From IMG/VR virus record IMGVR_UViG_3300024518_003115, positions 1 through 26,581 of that record: a stretch of 26,581 nucleotides of DNA; one strand, written 5' to 3'. The position numbers were made by a program, and so were the translations under genes. The notes beneath the pieces are model-generated. The model did not search any database, had not been told where the DNA came from, and was given only the letters and a program-made list of their open reading frames with translations. Shown one piece after another: positions 1 through 20,740 of this stretch. Every line of letters begins with the position of its first letter. The first letter of the stretch is position 1. This DNA comes from a virus.

Positions 1-14
1 GAATATTTGTCATT

Positions 15-56
15 CTAATATATCCAATCTAGGTGTTCAATATCTTCATGATTCAT
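15..56 (-). CDS. Possible 13-residue ORF downstream of the helicase
   Basis: A minus-strand ATG at 56-54 overlaps the helicase stop as ATGA and opens a 13-codon frame (MNHEDIEHLDWIY) ending at TAG. A further ATG at 13-11 follows after one base and runs off the window. The stop/start overlaps resemble the coupling seen elsewhere in this genome. Nothing else supports translation; it could simply be the edge of the next gene. Confidence 0.2.
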   Translation of the reverse strand: MNHEDIEHLDWIY

Positions 57-1735
57 ATCGTTATAATCTCCTTTTTTTCTATAGCTTCTGTTTCAACATA
101 CATATCTTGAACACTATCTTCTAGTAATTTAGTATTCTTTTTGCTTTCTTCTAAATCTATAACTTTCTTTGTTTCTAGATCCTCCACAAGTGCACTAGTC
201 CAGCTTTCCGTAGATCCCATTACCTTTCCAAGTGAGTTTAATTTCCTTTGAATAATAGGAGAAATATGAGATGTTTCTAATGTGTTATCAAATAATATTA
301 TATATTGATCTGTGTCACTGAAAGATGTAAAACGATGTGCTCGACCCATATATTGAACAATATCCATATCACTATAACATATAGAGAAAAATCCTGTTCT
401 GGTTTTTGTTTCCGCACGTTCATGATGAAGAGATAGACAAGAACCACCTGTTGCTAATGTAAGAAGACATGCTATTTTATCATCATTTTGAAAAGGAAGG
501 ACTTCTTCATTATGACGTCGTTCTTTACTCATAGGTTTGAGATTATATTTTTCAATTCCTTCAGCTAGTCTAGGATCTTTTTCAATATCATTAGGAGTTA
601 TACCACCAAATAATATTGCTATATCTTCTCGTTTGTGGCCATATTTTTCTATAAGACATTTGACTATAAGCATAATGGTGATTTTATATTTTACTCCCAC
701 GACAGGAGCTTTACCTGCTAATATCGCATCATGTGCCAGCATAGCAAAATATGGGGCTTTGATCACTTCACAAGCTTTGTTATATATGGTAAGCTGCACT
801 ATATATAAACCAGCTTTTTCATATCTATCCATTCTTTTAATTCGGATCATCATAGCCTGATATGCTTCTTTAGCACGTTGATATGTTAATCTATCTTTCT
901 CACAAACAAATGGCATTATTTTGAGTTTATTATGAGCGTGATATTTTTGTCTTTCTCCTGTAACTCTCACAACTCGATCAGATATCTTATCCATTAGTCT
1001 ACCAACCGCTGCTCGATTATATGCTTCGGGCGGGCTAGGAGAGGATATAACTTGGCTAAAATCTCTCCAATGATCAGTTGTAATTTCTACAGTGCCTTGC
1101 CAGCCAAATCTATGTGTTGGCCTTAAACTACAAATAACAGCTTTAGCATCACTAACTCTGCCAAAAGGCGTAGCACTCATGGGAAGAATCCGAGGGGCTT
1201 TTTCTGTAGTGAAACTCTCAAGCAATCCTTGGAATTGCTTTGATCTAATAGAACTGGAATTCTTTAAAACCTGGCATTCATCCACTATTATAAGTAGTGG
1301 AGTGAAAAGTTCATTCCATCTATATTCTACTCTTTCTTTTCCCCAATCATCCACAACTACAACTTCTCTTATAAATAGTGCACCAAAACTAGTGCGGAGT
1401 TGTTCATAATTTGTAACAAATATATTCTTTATGCCAAAATCTAAATTAGCTACTTTCTTTGTTTGCATCACCGCTGGAGCTTTTGTTAACCATAGCACAT
1501 TAAATGGCGTCATAGATCCACTTTCTATACGTCGTTTAGAAAACCAGTTTTCTTTTTCTAATTGTTGAATAAGTCTACAAATCATATATGTCTTTCCACT
1601 ACCAGTTTTTGCAACTAACATACATCCTGGTATATCATGTGGGAATCCGGTAGCTAATATATCTTTAACTGCTTTTGTTTGATGTGTGAGTTCTAATATA
1701 TTTCCATGTCTATTATTTAAATTTAAATTTTCCAT
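53..1735 (-). CDS. SF2 DEAD-like/SNF2-like helicase
   Basis: This is a 560-residue superfamily 2 helicase or translocase, presumably acting in phage DNA replication, recombination or transcription. Visible motifs are a Walker A (AKTGSGKT, residues 42-49), motif II (VDECQ, 151-155), motif III (SATP, 187-190) and motif VI (QYMGRAHR, 461-468), in the usual order and spacing for two RecA-like lobes. The DECQ box and the SATPFG motif resemble SNF2-like and phage T4 UvsW-type enzymes more than RecQ. The C-terminal 60 residues are rich in Glu and Lys and probably unstructured. It is the last large gene of the leftward group, 14 bases after the pentapeptide gene. The leader is A/T-rich with no clear Shine-Dalgarno. 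The helicase family is secure; the exact role is inferred. Confidence 0.88.
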   Translation of the reverse strand: MENLNLNNRHGNILELTHQTKAVKDILATGFPHDIPGCMLVAKTGSGKTYMICRLIQQLEKENWFSKRRIESGSMTPFNVLWLTKAPAVMQTKKVANLDFGIKNIFVTNYEQLRTSFGALFIREVVVVDDWGKERVEYRWNELFTPLLIIVDECQVLKNSSSIRSKQFQGLLESFTTEKAPRILPMSATPFGRVSDAKAVICSLRPTHRFGWQGTVEITTDHWRDFSQVISSPSPPEAYNRAAVGRLMDKISDRVVRVTGERQKYHAHNKLKIMPFVCEKDRLTYQRAKEAYQAMMIRIKRMDRYEKAGLYIVQLTIYNKACEVIKAPYFAMLAHDAILAGKAPVVGVKYKITIMLIVKCLIEKYGHKREDIAILFGGITPNDIEKDPRLAEGIEKYNLKPMSKERRHNEEVLPFQNDDKIACLLTLATGGSCLSLHHERAETKTRTGFFSICYSDMDIVQYMGRAHRFTSFSDTDQYIILFDNTLETSHISPIIQRKLNSLGKVMGSTESWTSALVEDLETKKVIDLEESKKNTKLLEDSVQDMYVETEAIEKKEIITI

Positions 1736-2537: not shown

Positions 2538-2627
2538 TTATTTCAGCTTTCGAATTTCATAATTCATTAAGAACCATAGAAGCAAGAAGCATGCCAGTTG
2601 GATGACTAACGGAAGAAAAATAATCAT
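2538..2627 (-). CDS. Possible 29-residue single-span membrane peptide
   Basis: Six bases after the 175-residue gene on the same strand, ATG at 2627 opens a 29-codon frame. About 20 hydrophobic residues (IIFLPLVIQLACFLLLWFLM) are followed by a short charged tail (NYEIRKLK). This is the shape of a single-pass N-out or N-in membrane peptide. The tight spacing supports co-translation. Against it, a -24/-12 promoter-like site lies inside this frame, so the stretch may be regulatory rather than coding. No family is recognised. Confidence 0.4.
   Translation of the reverse strand: MIIFLPLVIQLACFLLLWFLMNYEIRKLK
2581..2596 (-). promoter_or_regulatory. Sigma-54-like -24/-12 promoter, leftward
   Basis: On the minus strand the bases read TGGCATGCTTCTTGCT. 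The GG and GC doublets are 12 bases apart, as in the sigma-54 consensus TGGCAC-N5-TTGCW. The core matches two plus-strand sites at 5072-5087 and 11651-11666 at 13 of 16 positions. Transcription would start near 2570, leaving a leader of about 118 bases before the 58-residue gene. Confidence 0.5.
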
Positions 2628-4246: not shown

Positions 4247-4272
4247 CCTCCTTTCCCTCACGGGAAAGGAGG
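4247..4272. terminator. 11-bp GC-rich hairpin
   Basis: CCTCCTTTCCC (4247-4257) pairs perfectly with GGGAAAGGAGG (4262-4272) around TCAC. It lies 24 bases beyond the stop of the minus-strand 81-residue gene. No good U-tract follows on the minus strand; on the plus strand GCGTTTTT follows 9-10 bases later. It is probably the terminator of the GC-rich cassette. Confidence 0.6.
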
Positions 4273-4295
4273 CGTGTTGCGTTTTTCCTACCATG

Positions 4296-4541
4296 CTAGC
4301 TTTTGACAGTCACAATGCTGAGAGCCGGCACATCGTTGCTGCGCCCGTATGGCTTGATCCTTCCACCTCTTTCGAGGCATTGATATGCGTGAAGCTTGTC
4401 CGTCACCTGGTCCTGGCGCAGAATGTTGAACTCCTCCTGAAGTTCCAGGAAGAGTCTCCAGGCCGCGTTGAAACCCGATGCCAGAAACACCTCGGGCTTG
4501 GTGAGGGGATTCGTCACTACGATCATTTGTGTTTTCATCAC
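4296..4541 (-). CDS. GC-rich small protein (81 aa), possible recently acquired gene
   Basis: This 81-residue frame (MMKTQMIVVTNPLTKPEVFLAS at the start) lies in a stretch of roughly 58% GC, counted over two 60-base blocks, in a genome that is clearly AT-rich. The protein looks like a real globular domain, with a hydrophobic beta-like start (QMIVVTNPLT), a helical middle (AAWRLFLELQEEFNILRQ) and a C-terminal RGGRIKPYGRSNDVPALSIV. It is flanked by a TTGACA box upstream and an 11-bp hairpin downstream, so it resembles a self-contained moron-type cassette. A plus-strand frame covers the same DNA but has a less protein-like composition. Several Met codons near the start leave the exact start open. 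No family is recognised. Confidence 0.55.
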   Translation of the reverse strand: MMKTQMIVVTNPLTKPEVFLASGFNAAWRLFLELQEEFNILRQDQVTDKLHAYQCLERGGRIKPYGRSNDVPALSIVTVKS

Positions 4542-4545
4542 CCGA

Positions 4546-4574
4546 AGCTTACGATCTTAGCCCCACCTTGTCAA
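4546..4574 (-). promoter_or_regulatory. Possible sigma-70-type promoter for the GC-rich gene
   Basis: On the minus strand a perfect TTGACA (4574-4569) is followed after 17 bases by TAAGCT (4551-4546). The -10 box is weak, and a start near 4539 would be almost at the first ATG, so the transcript would be leaderless or use an internal Met. Confidence 0.3.
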
Positions 4575-4704
4575 CTTAAAAACCTACACCATTCTTGCAC
4601 ACCCTACTACAAGAAACTCTCACCTCTGCTTGTTGCCTGATCCCTGGATCTTATCGTGACATTTAAGGCTAATCTATATCATGCTGTCTATGTCTATATA
4701 TGTT

Positions 4705-4725
4705 TGTGTCTATAACATAGACACA
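4705..4725. repeat. 8-bp hairpin TGTGTCTA / TAGACACA
   Basis: TGTGTCTA (4705-4712) pairs with TAGACACA (4718-4725) around a 5-base loop, immediately left of the (AT)16 tract. It lies in the non-coding control region of 4542-5101. It could be an operator dyad or part of an origin. No frame crosses it. Confidence 0.6.
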
Positions 4726-4728
4726 TAG

Positions 4729-4764
<36 letters not shown>

Positions 4765-4894
4765 TTAATCTATATACTTATCATATCATACAACAGCATA
4801 CTACACTATATCACGCCGACTCTGCGAGGCTGAAGTGATTGATTTATAACGCTACGTTCATACTTCACTACGCTATATAATATTAAAGGAGTGT

Positions 4895-4928
4895 GAGCAT
4901 AGGACGGAGGGGTTCCCCCTCGATGCTC
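4895..4928. other. Two-step GC hairpin in the control region
   Basis: GAGCAT (4895-4900) pairs with ATGCTC (4923-4928), and inside it GAGGGG (4907-4912) pairs with CCCCTC (4916-4921) around a TTC loop, with an asymmetric bulge. It is GC-rich in otherwise AT-rich non-coding DNA, and AAAGGAGTG precedes it. It may be part of a small RNA, an operator, or a terminator lacking a U-tract. I see no gene between 4542 and 5101. Confidence 0.5.
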
Positions 4929-5015
4929 AGATGTACTATACAAGATACTCCCATATAAAATCTACCCTAAAAATCTTTAAGGAATCTCTAATATAAGAAG
5001 GCTTTAATTTAAAAC

Positions 5016-5071
5016 ATAGTAGAAACTTATTTAAAATATAGTAGAAACTAATATGAAAGATAGTAGAAACT
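5016..5071 (+). repeat. Three 12-bp direct repeats at 22-bp spacing (iteron-like)
   Basis: ATAGTAGAAACT occurs perfectly at 5016-5027, 5038-5049 and 5060-5071. The period is exactly 22 bp, about two helical turns, so bound proteins would sit on the same DNA face. A-rich bases precede each copy. The last copy shares one base with the -24 element of the promoter at 5071. They are probably binding sites for an activator, repressor or replication initiator. Confidence 0.85.
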
Positions 5072-5087
5072 TGGCATGATTCTTGCT
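5071..5087 (+). promoter_or_regulatory. Sigma-54-like -24/-12 promoter for the head operon
   Basis: TTGGCATGATTCTTGCT has GG (5073-5074) and GC (5085-5086) 12 bases apart, matching the sigma-54 consensus TTGGCACG-N4-TTGCW except for one base. It shares 13 of 16 core bases with sites at 2581-2596 (minus) and 11651-11666 (plus). The start would be near 5098, only a few bases before the first ORF. A TATAAT at 5098-5103 is also present but lacks a well-spaced -35. Confidence 0.55.
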
Positions 5088-5101
5088 AACTATATTATAT
5101 A

Positions 5102-5209
5102 ATGTTAGAATTTGAGAATATTGAAGAACTTAATAGGGTTTTAGAGGAATTGCTTGGTTTTGAGGATGTGAAAACCCCCGGCTTGAACTTTACGGCGGAG
5201 GGAAATTGA
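5102..5209 (+). CDS. Small acidic ORF (35 aa), first of the rightward operon
   Basis: ATG 5102 opens a 35-codon frame, MLEFENIEELNRVLEELLG and onward, strongly acidic and predicted helical or coiled-coil. It begins just after the predicted transcription start at about 5098, so it would be translated from an almost leaderless message. No Shine-Dalgarno is possible if that start is right. Its helix-forming, Glu/Leu-rich composition looks protein-like. It could be a small regulatory peptide or a non-coding leader. No family is recognised. Confidence 0.4.
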   Translation: MLEFENIEELNRVLEELLGFEDVKTPGLNFTAEGN

Positions 5210-5210
5210 G

Positions 5211-5254
5211 AATTATGGCTTTAAAATTATAAGTTTAAAATTATGGCTTTAAAA
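5211..5254 (+). repeat. Duplicated start region (16-bp direct repeat)
   Basis: AATTATGGCTTTAAAA occurs at 5211-5226 and again at 5239-5254. Both copies include an in-line ATG GCT TTA AAA. The first reads only to TAA after five codons, while the second starts the 51-residue gene. It looks like a small tandem duplication of a leader and start codon. Confidence 0.8.
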
Positions 5255-5398
5255 GAACAAGCGGATGGCAAGCATGGTTGGGCGCGAGGATATCATAAAT
5301 CTCTTAAAGTTTCAAAGCGGCGAATTGAAAGACATCGGGCGAAGCAAAATCCAGAAGCTCAGCCTGCTTATGGCAAGTATGCAGGATATGAGACATAA
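5243..5398 (+). CDS. Small basic protein (51 aa) upstream of the terminase
   Basis: The frame from ATG 5243 encodes 51 residues that are strongly basic (KHGWARGYHKSLKVSKRRIERHRAK spans about residues 10-34) with an aromatic C-terminus (AYGKYAGYET). The composition suggests nucleic acid binding. It lies between the late promoter and the probable small terminase gene. An upstream decoy ATG within a duplicated 16-bp leader is followed by a stop after five codons and could lower translation of this frame. No family is recognised. Confidence 0.5.
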   Translation: MALKEQADGKHGWARGYHKSLKVSKRRIERHRAKQNPEAQPAYGKYAGYET

Positions 5399-5417
5399 TT
5401 TAAGATAATATAAAAAG

Positions 5418-5984
5418 ATGAAATCACAGGAAATCATAGCTTTGCACTTAGCTCAGGGTCTCGACGCTGAAACTTTGGCGCAGTATTATAGACAACCTCT
5501 GGCTTCTGTGAAACTTATGTTAGAAGCTGCTGCGGTTAAAAACCCTGGCAAATTTAAACAAGCTGGTTCATCTTATTACATCCCTCCATCCTCTAGTGAA
5601 GGACTCTCTACAGAAGTTAAAAGATATGATCCGCAGAGTTTAGAGCTTAGCGAAGTTGAGCAATGTGAGAAAAAAGTGGCTATGTTTAAAATCATAGAAA
5701 CTATTGCACATGATACTTTGGATGAAAACAAGCATGTGGCTTTCCGAGCCGCCAAATTTTGTCTTGAAGAACTCAACGGGCGCAATGAGAGAAAACTTGC
5801 GAGCACCGGAAAATTGGCGGCTAATACTTTACTTGCTTTGGAAGTTGGCAAACTCAACGCTGCGATGTCGAAAGCGGCTAAAGACAGAGGTGCATTACTA
5901 GATGCTCCGATTTTAGATATAACTCCTTCTCTTCCTGCAGCTAAAAGTGAATCTAAACCTTTAAAAGAACTGGTTGAAGTTTAA
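5418..5984 (+). CDS. Probable terminase small subunit
   Basis: A 188-residue protein whose first 45 residues look like a helix-turn-helix (QEIIALHLAQGLDAETLAQYY followed by PLASVKLMLEAA), with a helical middle (residues 80-150) and a Pro/Ser/Lys-rich disordered tail. Small terminase subunits recognise the packaging site through such an N-terminal DNA-binding domain and oligomerise through a helical core. The strongest evidence is position: its stop is one base before the ATG of the large terminase gene. The N-terminal HTH could also fit a transcription regulator, so the call rests mainly on synteny. Confidence 0.6.
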   Translation: MKSQEIIALHLAQGLDAETLAQYYRQPLASVKLMLEAAAVKNPGKFKQAGSSYYIPPSSSEGLSTEVKRYDPQSLELSEVEQCEKKVAMFKIIETIAHDTLDENKHVAFRAAKFCLEELNGRNERKLASTGKLAANTLLALEVGKLNAAMSKAAKDRGALLDAPILDITPSLPAAKSESKPLKELVEV

Positions 5985-5985
5985 G

Positions 5986-7719
5986 ATGATTTCTCCTCAA
6001 TTACAGAAACCCACTATACCTAAAAACCCCAAGCTATCCAGCTCTGGGGCTTCTAGTTCTTCTCCTGATCTTATAGTATCCAAAAATTATGTTGCATTTG
6101 ATCAATTTGCTTCTCCGCTTGAAATGCTCTATGTGATTGATGAAAACTTTATTAATGGTAAAATATCTCTTTATCCTTGGCAAAAACATGCTCTTGTTCT
6201 TATAGCACAGGATTACAATGCAGAAGCTCCTCTCAAATATGTAATCCCAGCCGTAAACGGTAGCGGCAAAGATTATATTGTAATCGCCGCCACCGCAATG
6301 TGGCTCACACTTCGCAAAATCCGGCATCTTACAGTCATCACCTCTGCTAGTGGAAATCAGCTTTCTAGTCAAACTGAAACATATATTAGAAATTTAGCAT
6401 CTAAAGCTAACGATACTTTACTTCAGAATATGTTCAAAGTAAATCAACGTAACATAACTTGCTCGGCTACTGGTTCGCAGGTTCGTTTATTTGCTACTGA
6501 TGAACCTGGTAAAGCTGAAGGATATCATCCTATGGATTTTGGTGCTGAGATGTGTATTATACCTAATGAAGCCAAATCTATTCCAGAAGATATCTTTAAA
6601 GCTCTTAATAGATGCACAGGATTCTCACGCTGGATTGAAGTTTCCTCGCCCGGCAAACCTGCTGGGCATTTCTATAATATAGCAAAGATGGCAAAAGATT
6701 TAAAATCTTTCAAGTCTATTCGAGAAGCTTCTACATATCAAGGTGGTTGGATTAAATCTGTTATAACTGTTGATGACTGCCCGCATATCTCTCGCTCCCA
6801 AATGCAAGAAGATTTTATTCTCTATGGAGAGCATTCCTCATATTGCAGATCAAAATATAGGGCTGAGTTTACAACAGAAGATGAACTTGTTGTTATTGAG
6901 TTTGATAAACTTGTAGATTGCTATGAGAATCCTCCTGCTGAAAATCTTACCTTTGCTCCACTTCGCGCCGGAATGGATCTAGGTTTTGGTGGAGATAAAT
7001 CAGAGCTTTCGGTCTGGGAAGGCAATAAGCAAATTGGCATAGAGTCTTGGCGTATTAAAGACACAGTGCAGCAAGTTGAGTTTATAATAGAACTCCTTGC
7101 TACAAAATATCCTCTTCTTAAAGCAGAGAATGTAAATACAGATGATGGCAACGCAGGTAAAGCGGTCATAGATATGTTGCATAATAAAGGATTTTTGGTT
7201 AATAGGGTCTTAAATCAATCTATTCCGATAAACAGGAAAGCTTACGCTAATCGTGGAGCCGAAATGTATTTCTCGCTTGCAGCCCTTATTAACCAAAAAC
7301 TTTTAGTATTTATTCAAGACGAAACACAAAGAGATCAGCTTTCATTCCGGCATTGGAAACAATCTGCAATGAATGGCAAGATAGTTTTAAGATCCAAAGC
7401 AGATGAAAAAGCTTTAGGGATATCTTCACCGGATCGCGGAGATGCTTGCGTGCTGGCGAATAAAGGACTCCAGCCTCAAATGATGGGTGGGTTTGGTTCT
7501 GATAGATTAGCAAAAGATCTTAAAAATAATAAGAAATCTATCTTAAATCAAGGCACAACATCCTCAAATAAGCTAGTTGCTATGATGGAGCGAAGGCAGA
7601 ATGCTACATGGGAAGCTTTACAAGATGAGCATGATAGAAAACATTCTTCTGAATCTTCTAGTAAAAGAAGAGCAACAGGACTTTGTGTTTCTAATGCTCG
7701 AAGAATATTTGATTATTAA
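5986..7719 (+). CDS. Terminase large subunit (packaging ATPase/nuclease)
   Basis: This 577-residue protein is the motor that drives DNA into the prohead and cuts it. The ATPase part has a Walker A-like AVNGSGKD (residues 89-96), a Walker B-like hydrophobic stretch ending in PNEAKSIPEDIF (193-204), and the coupling segment SSPG (220-223). The nuclease part has the RNase H-like acidic set: GMDLGFGGDKS (D331), NTDDGNAG (D386/D387) and SPDRGDA (D483/D486). The usual Walker B Asp appears to be Asn194, followed by the catalytic Glu195. A TTG start at 5974 would add four residues but overlaps the previous gene; ATG 5986, one base after that gene's stop, is preferred. Confidence 0.92.
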   Translation: MISPQLQKPTIPKNPKLSSSGASSSSPDLIVSKNYVAFDQFASPLEMLYVIDENFINGKISLYPWQKHALVLIAQDYNAEAPLKYVIPAVNGSGKDYIVIAATAMWLTLRKIRHLTVITSASGNQLSSQTETYIRNLASKANDTLLQNMFKVNQRNITCSATGSQVRLFATDEPGKAEGYHPMDFGAEMCIIPNEAKSIPEDIFKALNRCTGFSRWIEVSSPGKPAGHFYNIAKMAKDLKSFKSIREASTYQGGWIKSVITVDDCPHISRSQMQEDFILYGEHSSYCRSKYRAEFTTEDELVVIEFDKLVDCYENPPAENLTFAPLRAGMDLGFGGDKSELSVWEGNKQIGIESWRIKDTVQQVEFIIELLATKYPLLKAENVNTDDGNAGKAVIDMLHNKGFLVNRVLNQSIPINRKAYANRGAEMYFSLAALINQKLLVFIQDETQRDQLSFRHWKQSAMNGKIVLRSKADEKALGISSPDRGDACVLANKGLQPQMMGGFGSDRLAKDLKNNKKSILNQGTTSSNKLVAMMERRQNATWEALQDEHDRKHSSESSSKRRATGLCVSNARRIFDY

Positions 7720-7794: not shown

Positions 7795-7874
7795 GGCTTT
7801 GTGTAGTGTAATAGGTAGCACGTGGGTCCACAAGATCTTTATAAAGTATAGGTTCGAATCCTATCACTTAGCCA
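7795..7874 (+). tRNA. tRNA-like gene, isotype not assignable
   Basis: The D arm (GTGT 7806-7809, loop AATAGGTA, GCAC 7818-7821) and the T arm (ATAGG, loop TTCGAAT at 7853-7859, CCTAT) are canonical, and the ends pair as GGCTTTGTG with CACTTAGCC with two central U-U mismatches. The T stem abuts the acceptor strand and two bases separate the acceptor from the D stem, as in tRNA. The 26 bases between the D and T arms (7822-7847) do not give a standard 5-bp stem with a 7-base loop and U33, so no anticodon can be read. It may be a degenerate tRNA, one with an unusual anticodon arm, or a tRNA mimic. It sits just after the large terminase gene. Confidence 0.55.
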
Positions 7875-8353: not shown

Positions 8354-10114
8354 ATGCCTCCTTCTTCTTCATATTCTGTAAATACTACGGACTCCGAAAA
8401 TCCTAACTCCACTTCTTATCAGACGCGCGGTGAGGCAATTCGGCGGCTTTATGATAACTGGTCCAGCGAAAGATCAGAAACAACCCGGCGTCGTCTTATT
8501 CGTCGTATAGATGTGGATAATGAAGTTCTTCGTAGGCGCGGAGATATAGCAGCAGATGAATCTTTCGTTGCCATTCGTCTTATAGATTCTAACATCAGCA
8601 AGGAGAAACCAACATTCGTAAATTACTTACGCAACTCACATCGGCAAGCAGTTTTCTCCCCTATCGACGGCGTTTACGATGGTGTGGAACTACTAGAGCA
8701 ATTTTACACCCGTGGCATGAGTTACATGCGCTGGGAAATACCTCACATCAAAGCACAAGATGGTGCGAGCGTTCACGGTTGGGATGCAGTGGAATTAAAG
8801 TTTGACAAATCCGTTCCATTCCATATTAGGGCAGAGCATGTAGGGCATGATAAGCTTTGGTTTAATTTAGATGTTGAAGATATCCAAGATGCAGCATATA
8901 TTGGAAGGGATCTTGTTATATCCAAACGCAAACTTAAAGACTGGGTAACTTCTTTTGGGTTTAATAAAGAACAAGTTGATTTCATATTAGATAAAGATTC
9001 TAACTCAAATCGAGAGCAACATGCTACGGTTATTATCTCTAAGGTATGGTTTCGTAATAAAGATAATGAAGTAATGGTAGGGTATTGGCATAGAGATGCT
9101 CAAGATTGGCTTAAATCTCCTTCGCTTGCTCATGTTGGTTTAGTAAAAGAAAATGGTTCTCCTGAAGCTATTACAAAATACCCTATTATATTACTCACAT
9201 ACACTGAAAGTGAAGAACCTGAAATCGTTTCTACATTAGGTAGAGTTTGGTTAGATCGTTATAAACAAGAAGCGGTTTGTACTTTATGGAGTACTGCTGT
9301 TACTGGAGCAACTCGTTCTGCAAATCTCTACGCCAGCCCCAATAATGCTAGTGATCAACCTATTGCTCCCCTTCAAGGTCTTCAGCTTGAAGGTAACACA
9401 ATGTATAATCAACCTATAAACTTTCATACTCCGCCCGCTCCTTCTCCGCAGCTTGTAGATTTTGCATCTAAGCTTGAAACACAAAATGATCAAGAAATAG
9501 GGCAAGTTAACTTTGCTGTTAATAATAGAAAAGACTCTGAGAAAACTGCAACAGAAATAAAATCTGCTGAGTCTTCTCAAACACAACTTTCCTCTGTTCA
9601 ACTTGTGTTCTTTGCAAATTATTTGCGTGAGTTTCATAACAGTTGTTGGGTTATTATAAATTCTAGAATCAATGCAAAGCTTATAGACAATGTTCCCGAA
9701 AGTATCTTACCCATAATCAATAAGCCTTTCCTAATACAACCGAGCGGCGACATTGATGTTATTAAACGAGATCAATTAGAGCAGCAACGCAGACAGGATT
9801 GGCCTGTTGTAGCAAACACTCCTATAGCGATTCCTTTCCTTATAGATATACTTAAAGTATCTTATCCTAATGACTGGCAAAGATATGCTCAAGTAATGCA
9901 ACAAGCTCAACAGCAACAAGCTGCTCAAGCCCAACAACAAAATGAAGCTAAGACAATTATAGCAGCTCAATCTAATCTCTTAGATGCAACTGTAGATGCT
10001 GATGATCTTAAAGGTGTTCCTAATCTAAATAATCAACTTCAAAAAGTTAAGAAAGTTGCTGAAAACTTTTTAAATCCACCACAACAAAATCAACCACAAA
10101 CACCGCAAGGATAA
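8354..10114 (+). CDS. Portal protein
   Basis: This 586-residue protein is the likely dodecameric portal through which DNA is packaged and to which the tail attaches. Support comes from its place between terminase and scaffold/capsid genes, its usual portal length, and its composition: a basic helical N-terminus (TRRRLIRRIDVDNEVLRRRG, about 44-63), an alpha/beta middle, a helical stretch with TATEIKSAESSQTQLSSVQL (about 414-433) typical of podovirus-like portals, and a Gln-rich C-terminal tail (QQAQQQQAAQAQQQ, 536-549). No exact family signature was matched by eye. The start at ATG 8354 has an A/T-rich leader. The next gene begins six bases after its stop. Confidence 0.75.
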   Translation: MPPSSSYSVNTTDSENPNSTSYQTRGEAIRRLYDNWSSERSETTRRRLIRRIDVDNEVLRRRGDIAADESFVAIRLIDSNISKEKPTFVNYLRNSHRQAVFSPIDGVYDGVELLEQFYTRGMSYMRWEIPHIKAQDGASVHGWDAVELKFDKSVPFHIRAEHVGHDKLWFNLDVEDIQDAAYIGRDLVISKRKLKDWVTSFGFNKEQVDFILDKDSNSNREQHATVIISKVWFRNKDNEVMVGYWHRDAQDWLKSPSLAHVGLVKENGSPEAITKYPIILLTYTESEEPEIVSTLGRVWLDRYKQEAVCTLWSTAVTGATRSANLYASPNNASDQPIAPLQGLQLEGNTMYNQPINFHTPPAPSPQLVDFASKLETQNDQEIGQVNFAVNNRKDSEKTATEIKSAESSQTQLSSVQLVFFANYLREFHNSCWVIINSRINAKLIDNVPESILPIINKPFLIQPSGDIDVIKRDQLEQQRRQDWPVVANTPIAIPFLIDILKVSYPNDWQRYAQVMQQAQQQQAAQAQQQNEAKTIIAAQSNLLDATVDADDLKGVPNLNNQLQKVKKVAENFLNPPQQNQPQTPQG

Positions 10115-10119
10115 AAACT

Positions 10120-10467
10120 ATGAAAACAACATTAGAGATAATGGAAAAAGCTTACGCTGGCGATTATATTTCTTCGCCGGAAAAAGATCCTATAAAAGAT
10201 CCAGATATAGATACAGACATAGATCAACCTCTTGAAGATCCTGTTACTCATGAGAAGAGTTATAAAATCTGGAACTCTCACCCTAACACTGTTTTATTCA
10301 CTCAATTTTTGCAAAATCTTGCTGATCTTCATCAAGTTGCATTAGAAACGACAACTAACCCTAACGTGGCTTATCTAGCAGGTAAGCATGTTGCATTAAT
10401 AAAAAGGATACAACACTATGCCGCAACCGGAACCGATATCTACACTGCCACCAACCCAAGAAGCTAA
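10120..10467 (+). CDS. Hypothetical protein between portal and scaffold (115 aa)
   Basis: A 115-residue protein with an acidic, Asp/Pro-rich N-terminal third (KDPIKDPDIDTDIDQPLEDP, residues 22-41) and a helical C-terminal part (LFTQFLQNLADLHQVALETT, and AGKHVALIKRIQHYAA). It begins five bases after the portal stop, and its last 50 bases overlap the scaffold gene in another frame, so expression of the three is probably coupled. It has no membrane span or signal peptide. It may be a small head-assembly or portal-associated protein; no family is recognised. Confidence 0.65.
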   Translation: MKTTLEIMEKAYAGDYISSPEKDPIKDPDIDTDIDQPLEDPVTHEKSYKIWNSHPNTVLFTQFLQNLADLHQVALETTTNPNVAYLAGKHVALIKRIQHYAATGTDIYTATNPRS

Positions 10468-11614
10468 TCCGCAAGATCAGCAACTTGTAGTTGAGCCACC
10501 GCCTATACAATCTGCCGCTCCTGAATTATATGATGATGATGCTCAAATGCTTTCGTTGGATGATTTCAATATGTCAGATGAAGACTTGGTTGAAAAAGAG
10601 AAAGAATCTACAGCAACCATCACTGAGTCGGAAGGAGAAGAAACTCCTAGCACAACAGAAGTTCCTATTGAAAAAGAAGAAGTTCCTAGCACAGATGAAC
10701 CCGCCCCAGCCGTTGCAGAGACCACACCCGCCGCAGATGCCAAGCCAGATACAACACCCGCCGAGCCCGTAGTAGAGAGTGCTCTTGAAGCAACTCTCGC
10801 TGACATATTTAAAAGTTCTCCTACAACAGAACCACTAAAACCCGACCAGCGTAATTTTGAAGGTTTGGCAGAAGAAGAGAAAGTGCTCTTCAAACAAATG
10901 TCAAATGATGCTTATAATAAGCTATATCCTGAAATACTTCAGCTTCGGCAACAAGCACAAAATGCTACAGTTTATAATAACCCTGAATCTTATAAATTAA
11001 CTCCAGAATATAATCAAGCAGTTGATGAATTTTCTCGTTTAGATACTTATACTCAACATCTCGAAGGTCAGCTTATGCGGCCCGATAATCGTTTTGTGCC
11101 TATAAATCAAGATGCTAATGGCAATCCGGTTGCTGGTGCTGAAGTAGAAATTACAGAGCAAGATAGAATGCAGGTCCGGCAAACTATAGAACAACTTAAA
11201 AACCAACAGAATCAATACCTAACTTCTGTTGATAATATTAAATCTCAATTCCAAACACAACACTCTCAACGCAAGAATCAAGTCATGGGTTTGCTTTCTA
11301 AGTTTGATTCTGAATCTTTACGACAAGATACTCCTGAATATCAATCTGTTAATAAATACTTAAGTGAGATGGGTTTAAATAAAGATATTCTAGCCCCTAT
11401 CGTAGGTGTATATCATAATAAATTAGTTGCTACTTTACGTGAGAATGTTGCTCTTAAGCAAAAGATGTCTTCTACTAGTAGTTTAGATGCTGAGCAAAAT
11501 GCTGCCGGACCTACTAAAGCACAATCAGGTGGAGATCAAAATTCTGTTGCTTCTGGTCCTGGTAATAATGAAGATTACACAGCCGCCGACATGGCAACAA
11601 ATCTCGCAATCTAG
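10418..11614 (+). CDS. Probable scaffolding protein
   Basis: A 398-residue acidic protein placed immediately before the major capsid gene. Residues 1-130 are low-complexity, rich in Glu, Pro, Thr and Ala, and predicted disordered. Residues about 140-370 are helical with many Gln (for example QVRQTIEQLKNQQNQYL), as expected of an elongated scaffold. The C-terminus is Gly/Ala/Ser-rich. Scaffolds guide capsid assembly and then leave or are cleaved. The start at ATG 10418 overlaps the previous gene and has AAAGGA nine bases upstream. The call rests on composition and synteny rather than a recognised signature. Confidence 0.65.
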   Translation: MPQPEPISTLPPTQEANPQDQQLVVEPPPIQSAAPELYDDDAQMLSLDDFNMSDEDLVEKEKESTATITESEGEETPSTTEVPIEKEEVPSTDEPAPAVAETTPAADAKPDTTPAEPVVESALEATLADIFKSSPTTEPLKPDQRNFEGLAEEEKVLFKQMSNDAYNKLYPEILQLRQQAQNATVYNNPESYKLTPEYNQAVDEFSRLDTYTQHLEGQLMRPDNRFVPINQDANGNPVAGAEVEITEQDRMQVRQTIEQLKNQQNQYLTSVDNIKSQFQTQHSQRKNQVMGLLSKFDSESLRQDTPEYQSVNKYLSEMGLNKDILAPIVGVYHNKLVATLRENVALKQKMSSTSSLDAEQNAAGPTKAQSGGDQNSVASGPGNNEDYTAADMATNLAI

Positions 11615-11615
11615 C

Positions 11616-11669
11616 ATAAGAAATCGCCAGCTATCTTATCACTCGAAAACTGGCACATTTCTTGCTTAT
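11616..11669 (+). terminator. Imperfect hairpin between scaffold and capsid genes
   Basis: ATAAGAAAT and GCCAG (11616-11630) pair with CTGGC, ATTTCTT and TTAT (11650-11669), broken by small bulges. The right arm contains the whole -24/-12 promoter core. In transcripts coming from upstream it could act as a terminator or processing site just after the scaffold stop; TATAATCTTATT follows. Confidence 0.55.
11651..11666 (+). promoter_or_regulatory. Sigma-54-like -24/-12 promoter for the capsid gene
   Basis: TGGCACATTTCTTGCT is a full match to the sigma-54 consensus TGGCAC-N5-TTGCW, with GG (11652) and GC (11664) 12 bases apart. Transcription would begin near 11676, giving a leader of about 215 bases before the capsid ATG. 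A second promoter here would raise capsid output above the rest of the operon. TATAAT at 11669-11674 is an alternative -10 but without a good -35. Confidence 0.55.
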
Positions 11670-11751: not shown

Positions 11752-11896
11752 GGGCATGATCGTTTAACTATTGCTTCTTATTATTTGGTAGGGCAGCCAG
11801 TGTGCATGTGGAATTGTGAGTTTTAATAGTCCTCATGGTGGATTTCACAAAAACCTAATCCATAATAATATTACAGAAAGATAAACGATCATGCCC
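11752..11896 (+). promoter_or_regulatory. Long-range 15-bp inverted repeat covering the capsid start codon
   Basis: GGGCATGATCGTTTA (11752-11766) is the exact reverse complement of TAAACGATCATGCCC (11882-11896), and the second arm contains the capsid ATG at 11891-11893. In mRNA the two arms would pair across 115 bases and hide the start. Smaller hairpins such as GGATT/AATCC lie inside. This looks like translational control of the major capsid protein, or a site bound by a dimeric protein. Confidence 0.6.
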
Positions 11897-13264
11897 GTTC
11901 AAACTGATCTCCCCAGGATTCAGAATCAGGAATGGAGTAATATTCAAGCAAATGATCTTTACCGGAAACTTCCGTTCTGGATTGCTGCTAATAACTCTAA
12001 AATGATGACCAAGTATTCTACTTGGCAAAAACTCACAGGAACACTTGCTTGGAAACCCAAACAAGGAACACAAGTTAAAGGTGTTCGTGCTGAACCTACC
12101 CCCGTCGTAAGACAATTCCTTCATCCTAATCGAATTACAACCACTCCTGTTAAAGATGTGTTTGAGGTTCGAGAAACTGAAGAGGATGAGTTCCTCTATC
12201 GTCAGAACTTTGAGTCTAAAGCTATTCACTTTCTGGATAGTTTTGAAGCATGGCGTGATGATCAAGTTGGTTTCGCTCTAAAAGATATCTCTGCACAAAT
12301 TGCTTGTGCTCAAGATCTTTTTATTCGCTCTCACATGTGGTATAAATCACCTGCTGTTATGTTTGCAGGTTCTGATGGATCTATTGCTAGTGCTTCTGAA
12401 TATGAGATTGATGTTCCTGTTAATTTAGGTAATGCTGCAAATACTGTAGCTGGATCTAAAAACAATGATTGGCTTGGAACTAATCTTCCTGGTGTTAAAT
12501 CTAATCTCTCTCTTCGCACTGTTATGCGAGCACTTGCTATCATCTCAGAAGATGTTCAAGCTCCTCCTTACGAATCTACTGCTATGATCCCTGTTGAAGA
12601 TGAAGGTCTTAAAGGATTGTATTGTTTGATTGGTTCTACTGAAGCGCATTGTGCTTTATGGGATGATCCTGAGCTTCGCACTCGTATGAAATCAGATAAT
12701 GAAGATATCATTCATTCTGGTTGGGGTGGAAAAATTGGTGGTCTTACAAGATGGAAATTTGAACGTTATCCAATGCGTATTCAATACACTGCTGTTGCAG
12801 GTGGTTCTCCTACAATTGCATTCCCCGCTCCGCAAATTATAGCAGACGGTGGATATAATGACGGAGAAACTGTTCCTAATCCTGATTACACTAATCCTAA
12901 CGTAGCACAGTATGAAGTTGCATGGCTGATGGGTGCAGATTCTTATCGCACTCTTAAAGTTGGTCCTGCTCCTGCTGATTTCTCTGCTGCGGAGCGTGGT
13001 ACTATGTCTCAAGGTGCTTTCAAAGCTTTGCGATGGAATGGTGAAGTTCGAGTTACTAAAGACTTCTTAGTTGATTATGCTACACCTAATGGTGGAGTTG
13101 AAAAATCAACTAATATGTATGGTGACTTCTTGAAGCTTATCTCTGATGTTACGTTTGGTTCTCTTCCAATCAATCGTAGATATTGCTTGCCAATTATCTT
13201 CAAGCGAACACGAGTAGCGCAGACTGCTGCTTCTGCTTCTGGAGCTAACCAAACTTCAACATAA
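11891..13264 (+). CDS. Major capsid protein
   Basis: A 457-residue protein, the likely subunit of the head shell. The evidence is its position right after the scaffold gene, a typical HK97-fold capsid length, absence of signal peptide or membrane span, and a mixed alpha/beta composition rich in Trp and aromatic residues (for example QEWSNIQANDLYRKLPFWIAAN near the N-terminus). An N-terminal helical region is followed by an apparently globular core and a Ser/Ala/Thr-rich tail. It has its own upstream promoter candidate, a 215-base leader and an inverted repeat over the start codon, which suggests separate and strong regulation. No exact family signature was identified by eye. Confidence 0.75.
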   Translation: MPVQTDLPRIQNQEWSNIQANDLYRKLPFWIAANNSKMMTKYSTWQKLTGTLAWKPKQGTQVKGVRAEPTPVVRQFLHPNRITTTPVKDVFEVRETEEDEFLYRQNFESKAIHFLDSFEAWRDDQVGFALKDISAQIACAQDLFIRSHMWYKSPAVMFAGSDGSIASASEYEIDVPVNLGNAANTVAGSKNNDWLGTNLPGVKSNLSLRTVMRALAIISEDVQAPPYESTAMIPVEDEGLKGLYCLIGSTEAHCALWDDPELRTRMKSDNEDIIHSGWGGKIGGLTRWKFERYPMRIQYTAVAGGSPTIAFPAPQIIADGGYNDGETVPNPDYTNPNVAQYEVAWLMGADSYRTLKVGPAPADFSAAERGTMSQGAFKALRWNGEVRVTKDFLVDYATPNGGVEKSTNMYGDFLKLISDVTFGSLPINRRYCLPIIFKRTRVAQTAASASGANQTST

Positions 13265-16440: not shown

Positions 16441-18793
16441 CATATTACCACTTCTAGCATTAAATGCTTTTGGTGTTGACCATCATGTTCATAGTGGTGC
16501 AGTTGGCTCTAATAATGGAGAGAGTTGGAATGATGCTTATACTTCTATTCCTGCGACGTTGACACGAGGGGATACCTATTATGTTGCTGATGGTTCTTAT
16601 TCTGGATATGTGTTTGATGATCCAGAATCTGGGTCTTCTGTTATCACTATAAAGAAAGCAACTCCCAACGAGCATGGTTCAAGTAATGGATGGGTGGATA
16701 GTCTTGGGGATGGGCAAGCTATCTTTACGAGCGGGTTAGGGTTTATTAAGGATAATTATGTTTTTGATGGAGTGTATCGTAATGAAGCTGATTGGAGAGA
16801 TGAGCCAGCTTATGGCTTTAGAGTTAAAGGTGCTTTAACATGGAATACAGCTTGGTATTCTGAGGTTGGGCATAATATTGTAGTTAGGTATTGTGATGTT
16901 GGAGGAACACCAAGCGAGAACTTTGATGAAGCACATCCAACGAATGCTTTTTACTTTGGTGGGTTTGGTGAAAATGTGACAAATATCACAGTATCAAGAT
17001 GCCACATTCATAATGTTGATGTGGGATTTCAAATAGCTGGTGGTGATGGGATGCTTATTGAGTATAATCACATTGGGCCTACCTGGAATAAGGAAGTCAT
17101 TCGTGGACAGAATACAGCAAAGAATATAATCATCCGTTATAACATCTTTTTAAATGGTTGTCAGAAAGTAGTAGGCGATCCTCCTGATGGTAGAGCGGGT
17201 TGCACAGCACAGATTGGCATATGGGACGGTGTAGCTGGTGGATTTGATAATAATGAAATTTATGGGAATGTTATAGCGACTGAAAAGACAGATAATCACA
17301 GTGATGCTGCCTTATTTGTTGGTGGGAATTTTTCTGATTTAGCTGGTCCTGGTGGTGATAATACAAAAGTGTATAATAACACAATTGTAGGTATAGCGGT
17401 TGGGCAAGCTGACATTGATCTAAATGGTAACAACACTCATGCTTTTAATAACATGTGGTATGATATATCTGCTAGTGGGGTTGGAGCAACTGCTACATTT
17501 ACGGGTAGTAATGGTGAGGAGGGTTCAGATCCGTTTGTAAATTATGTTGGAAATAATTATCGTTTAATAGCTGCTGTTGCAGGAACTGCATTAGGGGCTG
17601 GTTTTAGTGCTCAAGATATTATTGGCACAGTAAGGGGCAATGACGGGGTATGGGACAGAGGAGCGTATGAGTTTGAATCTGGTGGAGTAGATGTAACTCC
17701 TCCAATTATATCAAGCATAGCGTCATTAACAACCGACACAACAGCAACGATTACTTGGACTACAAACGAGCCAGCCTCTAGTCAAGTTAATTATGGTCTT
17801 ACAGATAGTTATGGGAGTGCTTTCGGTGATGCAGGATTTAGAACTTCACATAACCTTACTATCACAGGATTATCAGCAACTACAACATACCATTATCAGG
17901 TTGTTTCATTAGATCCTTCTTTGAATATGTCTTCTTCTTCTGATGCTACGTTCTTAACTAAGACTGTTGTTCCTCCAGATGCTGCCATCCCAACATTCTC
18001 ACCAAGTGGTGGAAGTTACCTTGAGAGTGTTAATGTAGATATTACAACAACGCTCAATGGTGCTTTAATTTATTATACTACAGATGGGAATGAACCAACT
18101 GAGTCATCAACTTTGTATGGCGGGACGCTTAGTCTTGGAGAGACTACTGAACTTAAAGCAAAAGCATTTAAGACAGGGTTTACTCCAAGTCAAACAGTTC
18201 GTGAGTATTATCAATTTAATTTCTTTGAAGCAACAAGCCCGGATGTTACCGGAACATACTGGCATAATATTAGATTCAATGAACGTACGGAACCATTCAC
18301 GATACAATATGATGTTGGAGTTTTGCTGACTAACATGGATTTTGTTATGGGATTAAGTGATGTTATTGGTGATGATTTTGGGGATAATGCTGTTAAGGTT
18401 CGATTCTTCACTAATAATGTAGTGGAAGCAATTCATGGGGGTTTCAATTACTATACAAACGAGAATGTGTTTAATTACACTGACACTAATGATTACACTC
18501 TTTACAATACAATTGATGCTACTAATTTCACTTACAGCACAGTTATAGGATTACAGGGAAATACAAACTTAACGGTGATTGCTACCAATTATCCATTTGC
18601 TACTGAACAACCGGCGTTAGCGGAGTTTAATTACTTTAACATGATCGTTGACTTTGGCATTGATGACATACCATCAGCGGGAGTCAGTAATTTTGTATTT
18701 GGGCTACCTTCAGCGCCGCCAGTAATCCCACCTGTTCCAATAGCACCGGCTACAACCCAAAACTTAAGAATCATATCAACAAGCTTACAATGA
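16418..18793 (+). CDS. Secreted beta-helix/FN3/chitobiase-like multidomain protein
   Basis: A 791-residue protein with a signal peptide (residues 1-19, ending NAFG). Residues about 20-420 are Asn- and Gly-rich with repeated strands (NIVVRYCDV, NIIIRYNIFLNG, VYNNTIVG), typical of a right-handed parallel beta-helix polysaccharide-active protein. Residues about 425-515 form a fibronectin-like domain (ATITWTTNEPASSQVNYG), and 523-596 a chitobiase/hexosaminidase C-terminal-like domain (PTFSPSGGSYLES, IYYTTDGNEPT). The last 195 residues are beta-rich and unrecognised. This architecture is typical of secreted bacterial enzymes rather than phage fibres, and points to transfer from a host. It overlaps the previous gene by 23 bases and the next by four. 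Confidence 0.75.
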   Translation: MKFLKTISILPLLALNAFGVDHHVHSGAVGSNNGESWNDAYTSIPATLTRGDTYYVADGSYSGYVFDDPESGSSVITIKKATPNEHGSSNGWVDSLGDGQAIFTSGLGFIKDNYVFDGVYRNEADWRDEPAYGFRVKGALTWNTAWYSEVGHNIVVRYCDVGGTPSENFDEAHPTNAFYFGGFGENVTNITVSRCHIHNVDVGFQIAGGDGMLIEYNHIGPTWNKEVIRGQNTAKNIIIRYNIFLNGCQKVVGDPPDGRAGCTAQIGIWDGVAGGFDNNEIYGNVIATEKTDNHSDAALFVGGNFSDLAGPGGDNTKVYNNTIVGIAVGQADIDLNGNNTHAFNNMWYDISASGVGATATFTGSNGEEGSDPFVNYVGNNYRLIAAVAGTALGAGFSAQDIIGTVRGNDGVWDRGAYEFESGGVDVTPPIISSIASLTTDTTATITWTTNEPASSQVNYGLTDSYGSAFGDAGFRTSHNLTITGLSATTTYHYQVVSLDPSLNMSSSSDATFLTKTVVPPDAAIPTFSPSGGSYLESVNVDITTTLNGALIYYTTDGNEPTESSTLYGGTLSLGETTELKAKAFKTGFTPSQTVREYYQFNFFEATSPDVTGTYWHNIRFNERTEPFTIQYDVGVLLTNMDFVMGLSDVIGDDFGDNAVKVRFFTNNVVEAIHGGFNYYTNENVFNYTDTNDYTLYNTIDATNFTYSTVIGLQGNTNLTVIATNYPFATEQPALAEFNYFNMIVDFGIDDIPSAGVSNFVFGLPSAPPVIPPVPIAPATTQNLRIISTSLQ

Positions 18794-19041
18794 AATATTT
18801 CTTACTACTTATCTTATGTGCTGGTTGTTCTACGACAGAGCTTGTAACTCCTAGTGGAGCACGTTATATCTCAAAGCGACCCCCTTTTGTTAAGCTAGAT
18901 ATTGCCAAAGTTGTTATAACTAAAGATGGTGATGATTACTTGTTTGAGATGGAAGGTATGTCACATGATATGACAGGTTATGAAAGAGTAGCCAATCATG
19001 CTATAGATGCAGCTATGAGTGCTATTAAACCTACTCCTTAG
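18790..19041 (+). CDS. Small lipoprotein (83 aa), spanin candidate
   Basis: An 83-residue protein with a lipoprotein-type signal: MKYFLLLILCAGC with Cys13 as the likely lipidated residue, followed by STTE. The mature part is about 70 residues, mixed charge (KRPPFVKLDIAKVVITKDGDDYLFEME). Lipoproteins beside holin-like genes can be outer-membrane spanins that fuse membranes at lysis; this one lacks the Pro-rich or coiled-coil features that would make the call firm. The start overlaps the previous stop as ATGA, so translation is coupled. Its first codons resemble those at 15790 and 20742. Confidence 0.55.
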   Translation: MKYFLLLILCAGCSTTELVTPSGARYISKRPPFVKLDIAKVVITKDGDDYLFEMEGMSHDMTGYERVANHAIDAAMSAIKPTP

Positions 19042-19043
19042 AA

Positions 19044-19313
19044 ATGAAATTAGATTTAGATAATGGATTTTTATTAAAATTAGTCTGCACTTTTGCCGGT
19101 TTGGTTATTGCTTACGCCACTTTGTTTTTTAAAATCGAAGCTATTGAGAAGGAATTGGCTAAAAATGATCGAGAGCAAATCATGATAGAGTTTCGTCTTC
19201 TTCAGCAACAGGTAACAGCACAAGATGAAGATTTATCTGAAGTTATGAAAGTTGTTAACAAGATAATGTTTGATGTTGAGAAGATTAAAACTAGAATAGA
19301 AATAATTCATTAA
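19044..19313 (+). CDS. Small membrane protein with coiled coil (89 aa)
   Basis: An 89-residue protein with one membrane segment near the N-terminus (FLLKLVCTFAGLVIAYATLF, residues 9-28) and a long charged helix after it (about 30-88), with heptad spacing of Leu, Val and Ile typical of a coiled coil. This shape fits an inner-membrane spanin (Rz-like) paired with the preceding lipoprotein, or a holin accessory protein. It begins two bases after the lipoprotein stop. The function is inferred from topology and neighbours only. Confidence 0.6.
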   Translation: MKLDLDNGFLLKLVCTFAGLVIAYATLFFKIEAIEKELAKNDREQIMIEFRLLQQQVTAQDEDLSEVMKVVNKIMFDVEKIKTRIEIIH

Positions 19314-19335
19314 ATAAAATGAAAGATATAAGGTT

Positions 19336-19677
19336 ATGGCAGAAGGGACACCTTGCGAACCACGTGAATGCATTTGTGAATGCATGCAAAAACAAAGATT
19401 AACTGCTATGGAAGAAAAGCTTGATACACTTAGTACTATAGTTAGTGGAAATGGGAATCCAACTAAAGGTTTAGTTATGCAAAATGCTAAACTTTGGGAT
19501 TGGATGGTTCAATGTAGATGGGCTATTAGTATTATTTTTGTTTCTATTTTAGGTATTATGGCATCTAGTTATAAAACATATAACACGCATCAAAATAATA
19601 AACAACTTCAAGAACATATTCAAAAAATGGATGTTCTAATTAATAAATTCATTATTTTAGCAGAAACTCCTAAATAA
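19336..19677 (+). CDS. Cys-rich single-span membrane protein (113 aa)
   Basis: A 113-residue protein. The N-terminal 16 residues hold four Cys (CEPRECICEC, positions 7, 12, 14, 16), followed by Met17. A coiled-coil-like stretch (about 18-35) precedes one membrane span (WAISIIFVSILGIMASSY, about 62-79), and the C-terminal tail is helical. The Cys cluster may bind a metal or form disulfides. Its stop overlaps the next ATG as TAATG. It belongs to a set of small membrane genes that could serve lysis or envelope entry. No family is recognised. Confidence 0.6.
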   Translation: MAEGTPCEPRECICECMQKQRLTAMEEKLDTLSTIVSGNGNPTKGLVMQNAKLWDWMVQCRWAISIIFVSILGIMASSYKTYNTHQNNKQLQEHIQKMDVLINKFIILAETPK

Positions 19678-19886
19678 TGCAAGACTTAATACCACAAGGA
19701 CATAGACAGATAACAATAGAGATTATATCTTTGGTTGCTATTATTGTTGTTGTTTATGGCTATTTAATTATTACACGACCACCTGATGCCAGCACGGTTA
19801 TCTTAACTGCTTTGGGTGCGATTAGTGGGAATCGTGCGGTTGGTTCTTGGAACTCTAGTGTGCAACATAAAGTAAAAGATAAATAA
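19677..19886 (+). CDS. Holin-like small membrane protein (69 aa)
   Basis: A 69-residue protein with a strong hydrophobic segment (IEIISLVAIIVVVYGYLII, about residues 14-32) and a weaker second one (ASTVILTALGAISG, about 38-51), then a basic tail (HKVKDK). Size, two predicted spans and the charged C-terminus match class II holin-like proteins. No endolysin is visible in this window, so a lysis role is tentative. The start overlaps the previous stop, and its own stop overlaps the next start, both as TAATG. Confidence 0.5.
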   Translation: MQDLIPQGHRQITIEIISLVAIIVVVYGYLIITRPPDASTVILTALGAISGNRAVGSWNSSVQHKVKDK

Positions 19887-20740
19887 TGCCTTTATTAACT
19901 CCAGTAACATTAGAAACTCCTCCTCAGCTTATAACGCCGGTTGGTGTTGTTAGGCGTATCAAGAATAGTTTGGTATTCTCTGAGTTTAGTTATGATACAT
20001 ATCTATTCGCCGATGTGCGAACATCTTATATTGTTACTGAGTTCGTAATGGACCCGCTTGAAGTTTTAAATAACTTCACTCTTGTTTTACCAATCATCCC
20101 ACCGGATCCAGCTGTAAACTTTATGATCGCCGTAAGAATTCCGAACGGCACAGCTTGGCCTACGCGACGTAAACTCTATGCAACTGTTGGTGAGAATTTA
20201 GTTTATCCACAATATAATGGCGAAGTTATAACACCGGACAGTGTATTTGAAATTTGGACTGCTGATGATTCACCTACTACCCTTACAGTTCCTTTTTCTC
20301 TCTTAACATCTTTAACAACTTCAACAGAAACTGATTGCTGTTGTGTTTCAGAAAACCAAGATAATGAAGATGCTCTTGATGAAGATTGTGCAATTTGGAC
20401 AGATGACTTAGCTCTTCCTATAGTTTTTGATACTTGCTATGGTGGAGTTGGTCCTAGTGCTCCTTCTGTGCCTGCTCCTACTCTGTTAGTTGCTGAATTT
20501 TCTGGCACTCCTTTGACTGGTAGTGATCCTTTGAGCGTGACATTCACGGATCTATCAACAGGAAGCCCTACAGGTTGGAACTGGTATTTTGGTTTTGCTG
20601 GCGTTGGTAATACTTCTATACTACAAAATCCTGTAGTTACTTTCCCGACTACAGGCACATATACTATAATGCTCACCGTAAATGATGGTGTTGGCAATGA
20701 CACAGAAACAAAAGTAGGTTATATAACCGTAATAGTTTAA
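19886..20740 (+). CDS. Phage protein with C-terminal PKD domain
   Basis: A 284-residue protein. Residues 201-284 are a PKD domain (LVAEFSGTPL, VTFTDLSTGSPTGWNWYFG, VTFPTTGTYTIMLTVND), an immunoglobulin-like fold used in extracellular adhesion. The first 150 residues are beta-rich and resemble a structural scaffold without known family. A Cys cluster (TDCCCVSE, 149-156) and an acidic stretch (NEDALDEDCAIW) lie between. No signal peptide is present, so it is likely virion-bound, perhaps a fibre or adhesin displayed on the particle. Confidence 0.6.
   Translation: MPLLTPVTLETPPQLITPVGVVRRIKNSLVFSEFSYDTYLFADVRTSYIVTEFVMDPLEVLNNFTLVLPIIPPDPAVNFMIAVRIPNGTAWPTRRKLYATVGENLVYPQYNGEVITPDSVFEIWTADDSPTTLTVPFSLLTSLTTSTETDCCCVSENQDNEDALDEDCAIWTDDLALPIVFDTCYGGVGPSAPSVPAPTLLVAEFSGTPLTGSDPLSVTFTDLSTGSPTGWNWYFGFAGVGNTSILQNPVVTFPTTGTYTIMLTVNDGVGNDTETKVGYITVIV

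Follow-up and report, generated by a model that had tools for sequence, protein, structure and literature searches.

Predicted sigma-54 promoters and a phage-encoded AAA+ activator in a family of tailed phages

Phages are known to take over host transcription with sigma-70-class factors, anti-sigma factors, and polymerases of their own. The gp55, gp33, and gp45 proteins of T4 and the sigma cascade of SPO1, for example, redirect the host RNA polymerase to late promoters. The phage family described here likewise appears to supply factors for its late switch, but the proposed mechanism involves sigma-54 and an ATPase rather than a factor of the sigma-70 class. At sigma-54 promoters, an upstream enhancer bound by the activator is usual, although not universal. 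The family shares with bacterial sigma-54 and its activators of the NtrC, FleQ, and PspF type the same promoter consensus and spacing, an AAA+ protein with a GAFTGA loop, and, in one clade, a full-length RpoN. It differs from the bacterial systems in that the genes serve phages in which no integrase was found (25 family records), in that the activators lack receiver and DNA-binding domains, and in that the RpoN-bearing clade uses a -12 box of AGCW or GGCW.

AAA+ modules that lack a DNA-binding domain have been described. CtcC of Chlamydia has no DNA-binding domain and keeps an N-terminal regulatory domain (PMC7482065), and DctD250, an engineered AAA+ domain alone, gives constitutive, enhancer-free activation of sigma-54 promoters of different regulons (PMC3844500). 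One natural and one engineered precedent thus show that an AAA+ module of this kind can act. The phage activators resemble both proteins in this respect, but CtcC has its regulatory domain and DctD250 is artificial, whereas those of the phages occur naturally and consist of an AAA+ domain preceded by a short N terminus that varies. A sigma-54-like factor has also been claimed for a phage, as gp2 of the T7-like Pectobacterium phage Q19 was labeled a putative sigma-54 factor because of an HHpred match with an E value of 0.67, and the passages located there mention neither sigma-54 promoters nor an activator (PMC7693777). No phage whose late genes are driven by sigma-54 came to light in a search of open-access PMC full text. 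The component parts are known, and their combination appears to be new.

The stretch of DNA that was analyzed, hereafter the window, is a 26.6-kb fragment that is cut at a helicase gene and has few recognizable genes (Table 1). The names portal, scaffold, and capsid were assigned from gene order and not from curated models. Between the genes for the terminase large subunit (TerL) and the putative portal protein lies a tRNA-Cys gene with an anticodon read as ACA (7797-7873), and a DUF6734 protein (21633-22487; E value, 3e-35) is encoded among the structural genes. A long run of TA dinucleotides (4730-4765) sits in the central intergenic region that separates the two arms.

Table 1. Features of the window, with coordinates and the basis of each assignment
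Feature	Coordinates	Strand	Basis or remark
Contig edge	1..52	-	Cut; in relatives, place where the operon continues to the activator gene (F008); gene absent from window
Helicase (ResIII/DEAD), family F005	53..1735	-	In relatives, sigma-54 activator gene follows downstream, same strand
Third sigma-54-type promoter, predicted	2581..2596	-	TGGCATGCTTCTTGCT; reads leftwards toward helicase operon
Three direct repeats, about 24 nt each, 22 bp apart	5005..5072	+	TAATTTAAAACATAGTAGAAACTT; end at -24 element
Sigma-54-type promoter, predicted, head of terminase/portal genes	5071..5087	+	TTGGCATGATTCTTGCT; predicted start 5098
35-aa ORF	5102..5209	+	Begins 4 nt past predicted start; G012 and G017 have small ORFs in a comparable position
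Probable terminase small subunit (TerS)	5418..5984	+	Position; weak match to relative G012 (E value, 6e-4)
TerL	5989..7719	+	E value of 3e-31 to Akkermansia phage Chantilly terminase
Putative portal protein, family F003 (31 contigs)	8354..10114	+	Gene order; no curated model match
Putative scaffold/head-assembly protein, family F004	10418..11614	+	Gene order
Second sigma-54-type promoter, predicted	11651..11666	+	TGGCACATTTCTTGCT; 225 bp upstream of putative major capsid gene
Putative major capsid protein (MCP), family F009	11891..13264	+	Gene order and conservation

The element at 5071 is very probably a genuine sigma-54 (-24/-12) promoter. The phage would have at least three of them, and they would belong to a family-wide scheme with a phage-made activator. 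An earlier, sequence-only reading had placed TTGGCATGATTCTTGCT one mismatch from the -24/-12 consensus, and a consensus scan of the window bears this out: against TGGCACGNNNNTTGCW, the single mismatch is a T for C at 5077, and T is found at the equivalent position in 58% of family sites. That reading also set the element at the head of a late operon of packaging and head genes. The position holds for the 5071 site, but the idea of one operon with one promoter does not, because the putative capsid gene has its own site. Indeed, the window has at least three such sites where one had been noted. The three top-scoring sites (2581-2596 on the minus strand, 5072-5087 and 11651-11666 on the plus strand) compare with 0.08 expected, and none of 1,000 dinucleotide shuffles gave three; thus, the 5071 site is not explained by chance. 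A plain two-mismatch scan of the window gave five matches, and 6 of 100 shuffles scored as high. By that scan alone the window is unconvincing, and it is the comparative evidence that settles the site.

If C5086 is taken as -12, transcription is predicted to start at 5098, and as the first ATG is at 5102, the arithmetic of a four-base leader is correct on paper. The wider idea of a nearly leaderless message fared less well, as family sites (n = 94) have an ATG 8 to 17 nt past the site in 30 cases, compared with 9 to 17 cases in seven other intervals of equal size. This excess is suggestive only, and near-leaderless messages may be common in the family. The direct repeats that run up to the -24 element agree at 15 of 16 positions at a lag of 22, a match never reached in 30 shuffles, and are possible candidate sites for a regulator. 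They are not family wide. TAGAA-containing repeats about 21 bp apart, which resemble those of the window, were seen upstream of sites in two relatives (G007 and G031). Across the family, no convincing upstream enhancer motif was found, and k-mer enrichment was weak.

The family was assembled from the terminase. Scans of IMG/VR with single proteins (MCP, TerL, portal, and helicase) gave no matches, and an alignment of TerL with Akkermansia phages, to whose TerLs the window protein is about 29% identical, led to 80 IMG/VR loci, from which 32 related viral contigs were taken as the family. Among the best 30-odd loci, the helicase, TerL, portal, scaffold, and capsid families are common to the window, and their order is kept. 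Several relatives have terminal repeats and, at 50 to 56 kb, are apparently complete. The window belongs to the family by its TerL, by its portal, scaffold, MCP, and helicase families, and by its promoters, and the TerL tree places it inside the activator-bearing clade with support of 100/100 for the clade and 96/94 for the subclade. Sister terminase families have neither an excess of sigma-54 sites nor the activator. Among 47 contigs with more distant TerLs, only one (L072) carries an activator gene, and the tree puts that contig inside the clade. The helicase is encoded as two neighboring open reading frames in G002 (17453-19917), G015, G020, and G029, and DNA polymerase F001 is likewise divided in some relatives (e.g., G002, 4251-7285); these could be either split genes or genes with intervening elements.

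The promoter is conserved in base and in spacing. GG at -24, GC at -12, and the fixed spacing of YTGGCACG-N4-TTGCW are present in the window and in the family. The pattern TGGCAY-N6-TGCW has 107 matches in family contigs and 3 to 14 at other spacings, with 6 or 13 when the spacer is altered by a single base. The contigs hold 73 top-scoring sites, compared with a shuffle mean of 4.7 and a largest value of 9. Positions outside the search pattern also fit the bacterial consensus (T at -27 in 67%, G at -20 in 63%, and T at -15 in 56%), and nothing downstream of the family sites resembles a -10 hexamer or a +1 element. In 23 of 26 members, a site precedes the capsid gene start as called, mostly by 87 to 262 bp; in G017 and G021 it falls just inside the capsid gene call, which is probably overextended. 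Moreover, 33 MCP-bearing contigs that were fetched later and used neither to find nor to tune the pattern have a site 111 to 232 bp upstream of the MCP match in 25 cases and in none under any of seven controls (reversed, complemented, reverse-complemented, and wrong-spacing patterns). The 5071 site recurs at the same place in G002, G003, G004, G012, G015, G017, and G021, and G023, G024, G028, and G030 have it there with the -12 box shifted; some family members have no recognizable sigma-54 site before TerS. On the left arm, most members of the window's subclade have sites upstream of the helicase-activator operon, like the 2581 site, most members of the other subclade have one directly after the activator gene, and two activator-bearing contigs (G004 and G017) have none at either usual place. 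In one subclade, proteins of 930 to 1,050 aa are encoded behind a sigma-54 site (L016, 1154-3946; L017, 6188-9055; L018, 5918-9073), and the very large proteins that were tested gave no family match.

How the phages could fire such promoters is indicated by an AAA+ protein of 236 to 356 aa that matches the sigma-54 activator family PF00158 (E values, 1e-48 to 1e-65) and is encoded in 27 of 32 contigs. The five contigs without it are fragments from which the helicase region is also missing, and the gene is present in every contig that covers its region. It is always on the left arm. Wherever a contig has both genes, they share a strand, and the activator gene follows that of the helicase with 0 to 13 small genes in between. 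Walker A, Walker B, and a GAFTGA-type loop are conserved, the profile matches FleQ and NtrC chains (E value, 1e-80), and a structure model (pLDDT, 84) matches the AAA+ domains of both (E values, 1e-22 to 1e-23). The N termini are short and variable, no receiver domain was found, and the chain stops about 25 residues past the GNxR motif. With so little sequence beyond the AAA+ domain, the protein has no DNA-binding domain, and Pfam finds no C-terminal helix-turn-helix. It is therefore predicted to act from solution and would not strictly be an enhancer-binding protein. The window itself holds neither an activator nor an rpoN gene within its 26.6 kb, but because it is nested in the activator-bearing clade, its phage most likely has the activator gene just beyond the left edge. 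Matches to RpoN and the activator in INPHARED look mostly bacterial, in records labeled as phage. A human fecal phage contig (L179; MT121960) has an activator-like AAA+ gene at 20001-20594 and no sigma-54 sites of the family type.

Seven contigs that form one tight clade also encode a full RpoN of about 430 aa (family F037), and more RpoN-bearing contigs turned up in another scan. The activator-interacting (AID), core-binding (CBD), and DNA-binding (DBD) Pfam domains are all above cutoff, the RpoN box reads ARRTIAKYR (reference, ARRTVAKYR), and the protein matches solved sigma-54 chains over its full length (E value, 2e-51). Identity to the bacterial RpoNs compared, mostly from the likely host phylum, is 31 to 38%, and the AlphaFold model reaches a pLDDT of only 36. 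Sites in this clade precede TerS, the capsid gene, one gene of unknown function, and rpoN itself. Their -12 box is mostly AGCW (26 A and 3 T), whereas elsewhere it is TGCW (107 T and 13 A), and 11 further RpoN loci have 14 A, 7 G, and 2 T at the first base; some of the sequences counted are related to one another, and the numbers should not be read as independent events. The shift is plain in the sequences, and from it we infer that the sigma specificity may have changed.

A sigma-70 promoter of fair quality, TTGGCA-N16-TATTAT, can be made out in the bases at 5071 as well, with 10 of 12 consensus matches in an AT-rich region, and the likeness to sigma-54 could then be accidental. That reading is not conserved in relatives, however; what the family keeps is the GC at -12 and the fixed spacing, with no conserved -10 hexamer, and the sites co-occur with genes for a sigma-54 activator and RpoN. 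An ordinary sigma-70 promoter is, we think, very improbable. Strong conservation within one family would be equally expected of a T7-type promoter, so the motif might instead serve a phage-specific RNA polymerase or another phage DNA-binding protein, with the AAA+ protein working in replication or packaging. Although a very large gene of unknown function behind one site in several members might suit such a polymerase, the large proteins tested match no family, and no match to a single-subunit RNA polymerase was found, a weak point as control genomes gave no signal either. Moreover, the motif fits the bacterial sigma-54 consensus at unselected positions too, the AAA+ protein carries the loop that contacts sigma-54, and it is the RpoN carriers that shift the -12 box. 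We regard this alternative, too, as very improbable.

A third possibility accepts the sigma-54 promoters but has them driven by host enhancer-binding proteins that sense host physiology, with the phage AAA+ protein as an accessory or a decoy. The presence of rpoN in genomes of the likely host phylum is in keeping with this idea, and the 22-bp repeats directly upstream of the site in the window could be enhancer-like. The repeats, however, are not shared by the whole family and lie far closer to the promoter than enhancers usually do, and the activator gene, present wherever a contig spans its position, would be redundant. Control by host activators thus seems unlikely. The conserved element, the phage-encoded activator, and the RpoN clade with jointly shifted -12 boxes support the sigma-54 assignment of the sequence-only reading, and the best reading is that phage activators without a DNA-binding domain would act at the phage promoters on polymerase that carries the sigma-54 of the host (or of the phage).

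The host is probably a member of the Verrucomicrobiota, as suggested by the kinship of TerL with phages and prophages of Akkermansia and Luteolibacter. TerL relatives in genomes (29 to 32%) come from Luteolibacter and Verrucomicrobiaceae and fall outside the clade. Two contigs with TerL inside the clade (L180 and L181) belong to metagenome-assembled genomes whose labels, Proteobacteria and Methanoregulaceae, disagree, and no 16S sequence was found in either genome; the contigs are probably misbinned phage or else a clue to the host. Because these labels differ from Verrucomicrobiota, the host assignment is a leaning rather than a result. A host without sigma-54, together with no phage equivalent, would speak against the promoter, and where the point could be checked the opposite was found, with rpoN in 144 of 145 Verrucomicrobiota genomes. 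The family MCP was absent from the genome contigs searched and from 388 Verrucomicrobiota genomes, and therefore no prophage of the family was seen.

We envision that core RNA polymerase with sigma-54 would sit at the phage sites as a stalled closed complex. The phage AAA+ ATPase would touch sigma-54 from solution through its GAFTGA loop and open the complexes with ATP, such that the terminase and portal genes, the capsid gene, and the left-arm operons might be switched on together. Because the helicase-activator operon has sigma-54 sites in front of it in most of the window's subclade, the activator there is probably self-amplifying, and positive feedback would follow. Perhaps a leaky sigma-70 promoter starts the first round, or, alternatively, host activators do. 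Most members would use the host sigma-54. The RpoN clade has its own sigma-54 and altered -12 promoters and may therefore read those promoters independently of the host factor. We infer activation from solution, late timing, and feedback from gene content and site placement. As a whole, a tailed-phage family that runs its late program through ATP-driven sigma-54 and a free-floating activator, with a branch that has gained a private sigma-54 of changed -12 specificity (AGCW or GGCW), partly independent of that of the host and autoregulated from the promoter of its own rpoN, seems to us reasonably likely.

If true, sigma-54 would be a separate route of phage takeover, in which promoters stay silent until a phage ATPase fires and the switch is thereby tight. 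The family would supply natural AAA+-only activators of sigma-54, together with a naturally occurring sigma-54 whose -12 box is shifted. Both are directly testable in Escherichia coli reporters and would be of use for the question, still open, of how the -12 element is recognized by sigma-54. For most of these phages, moreover, the RpoN status of the host could limit host range.
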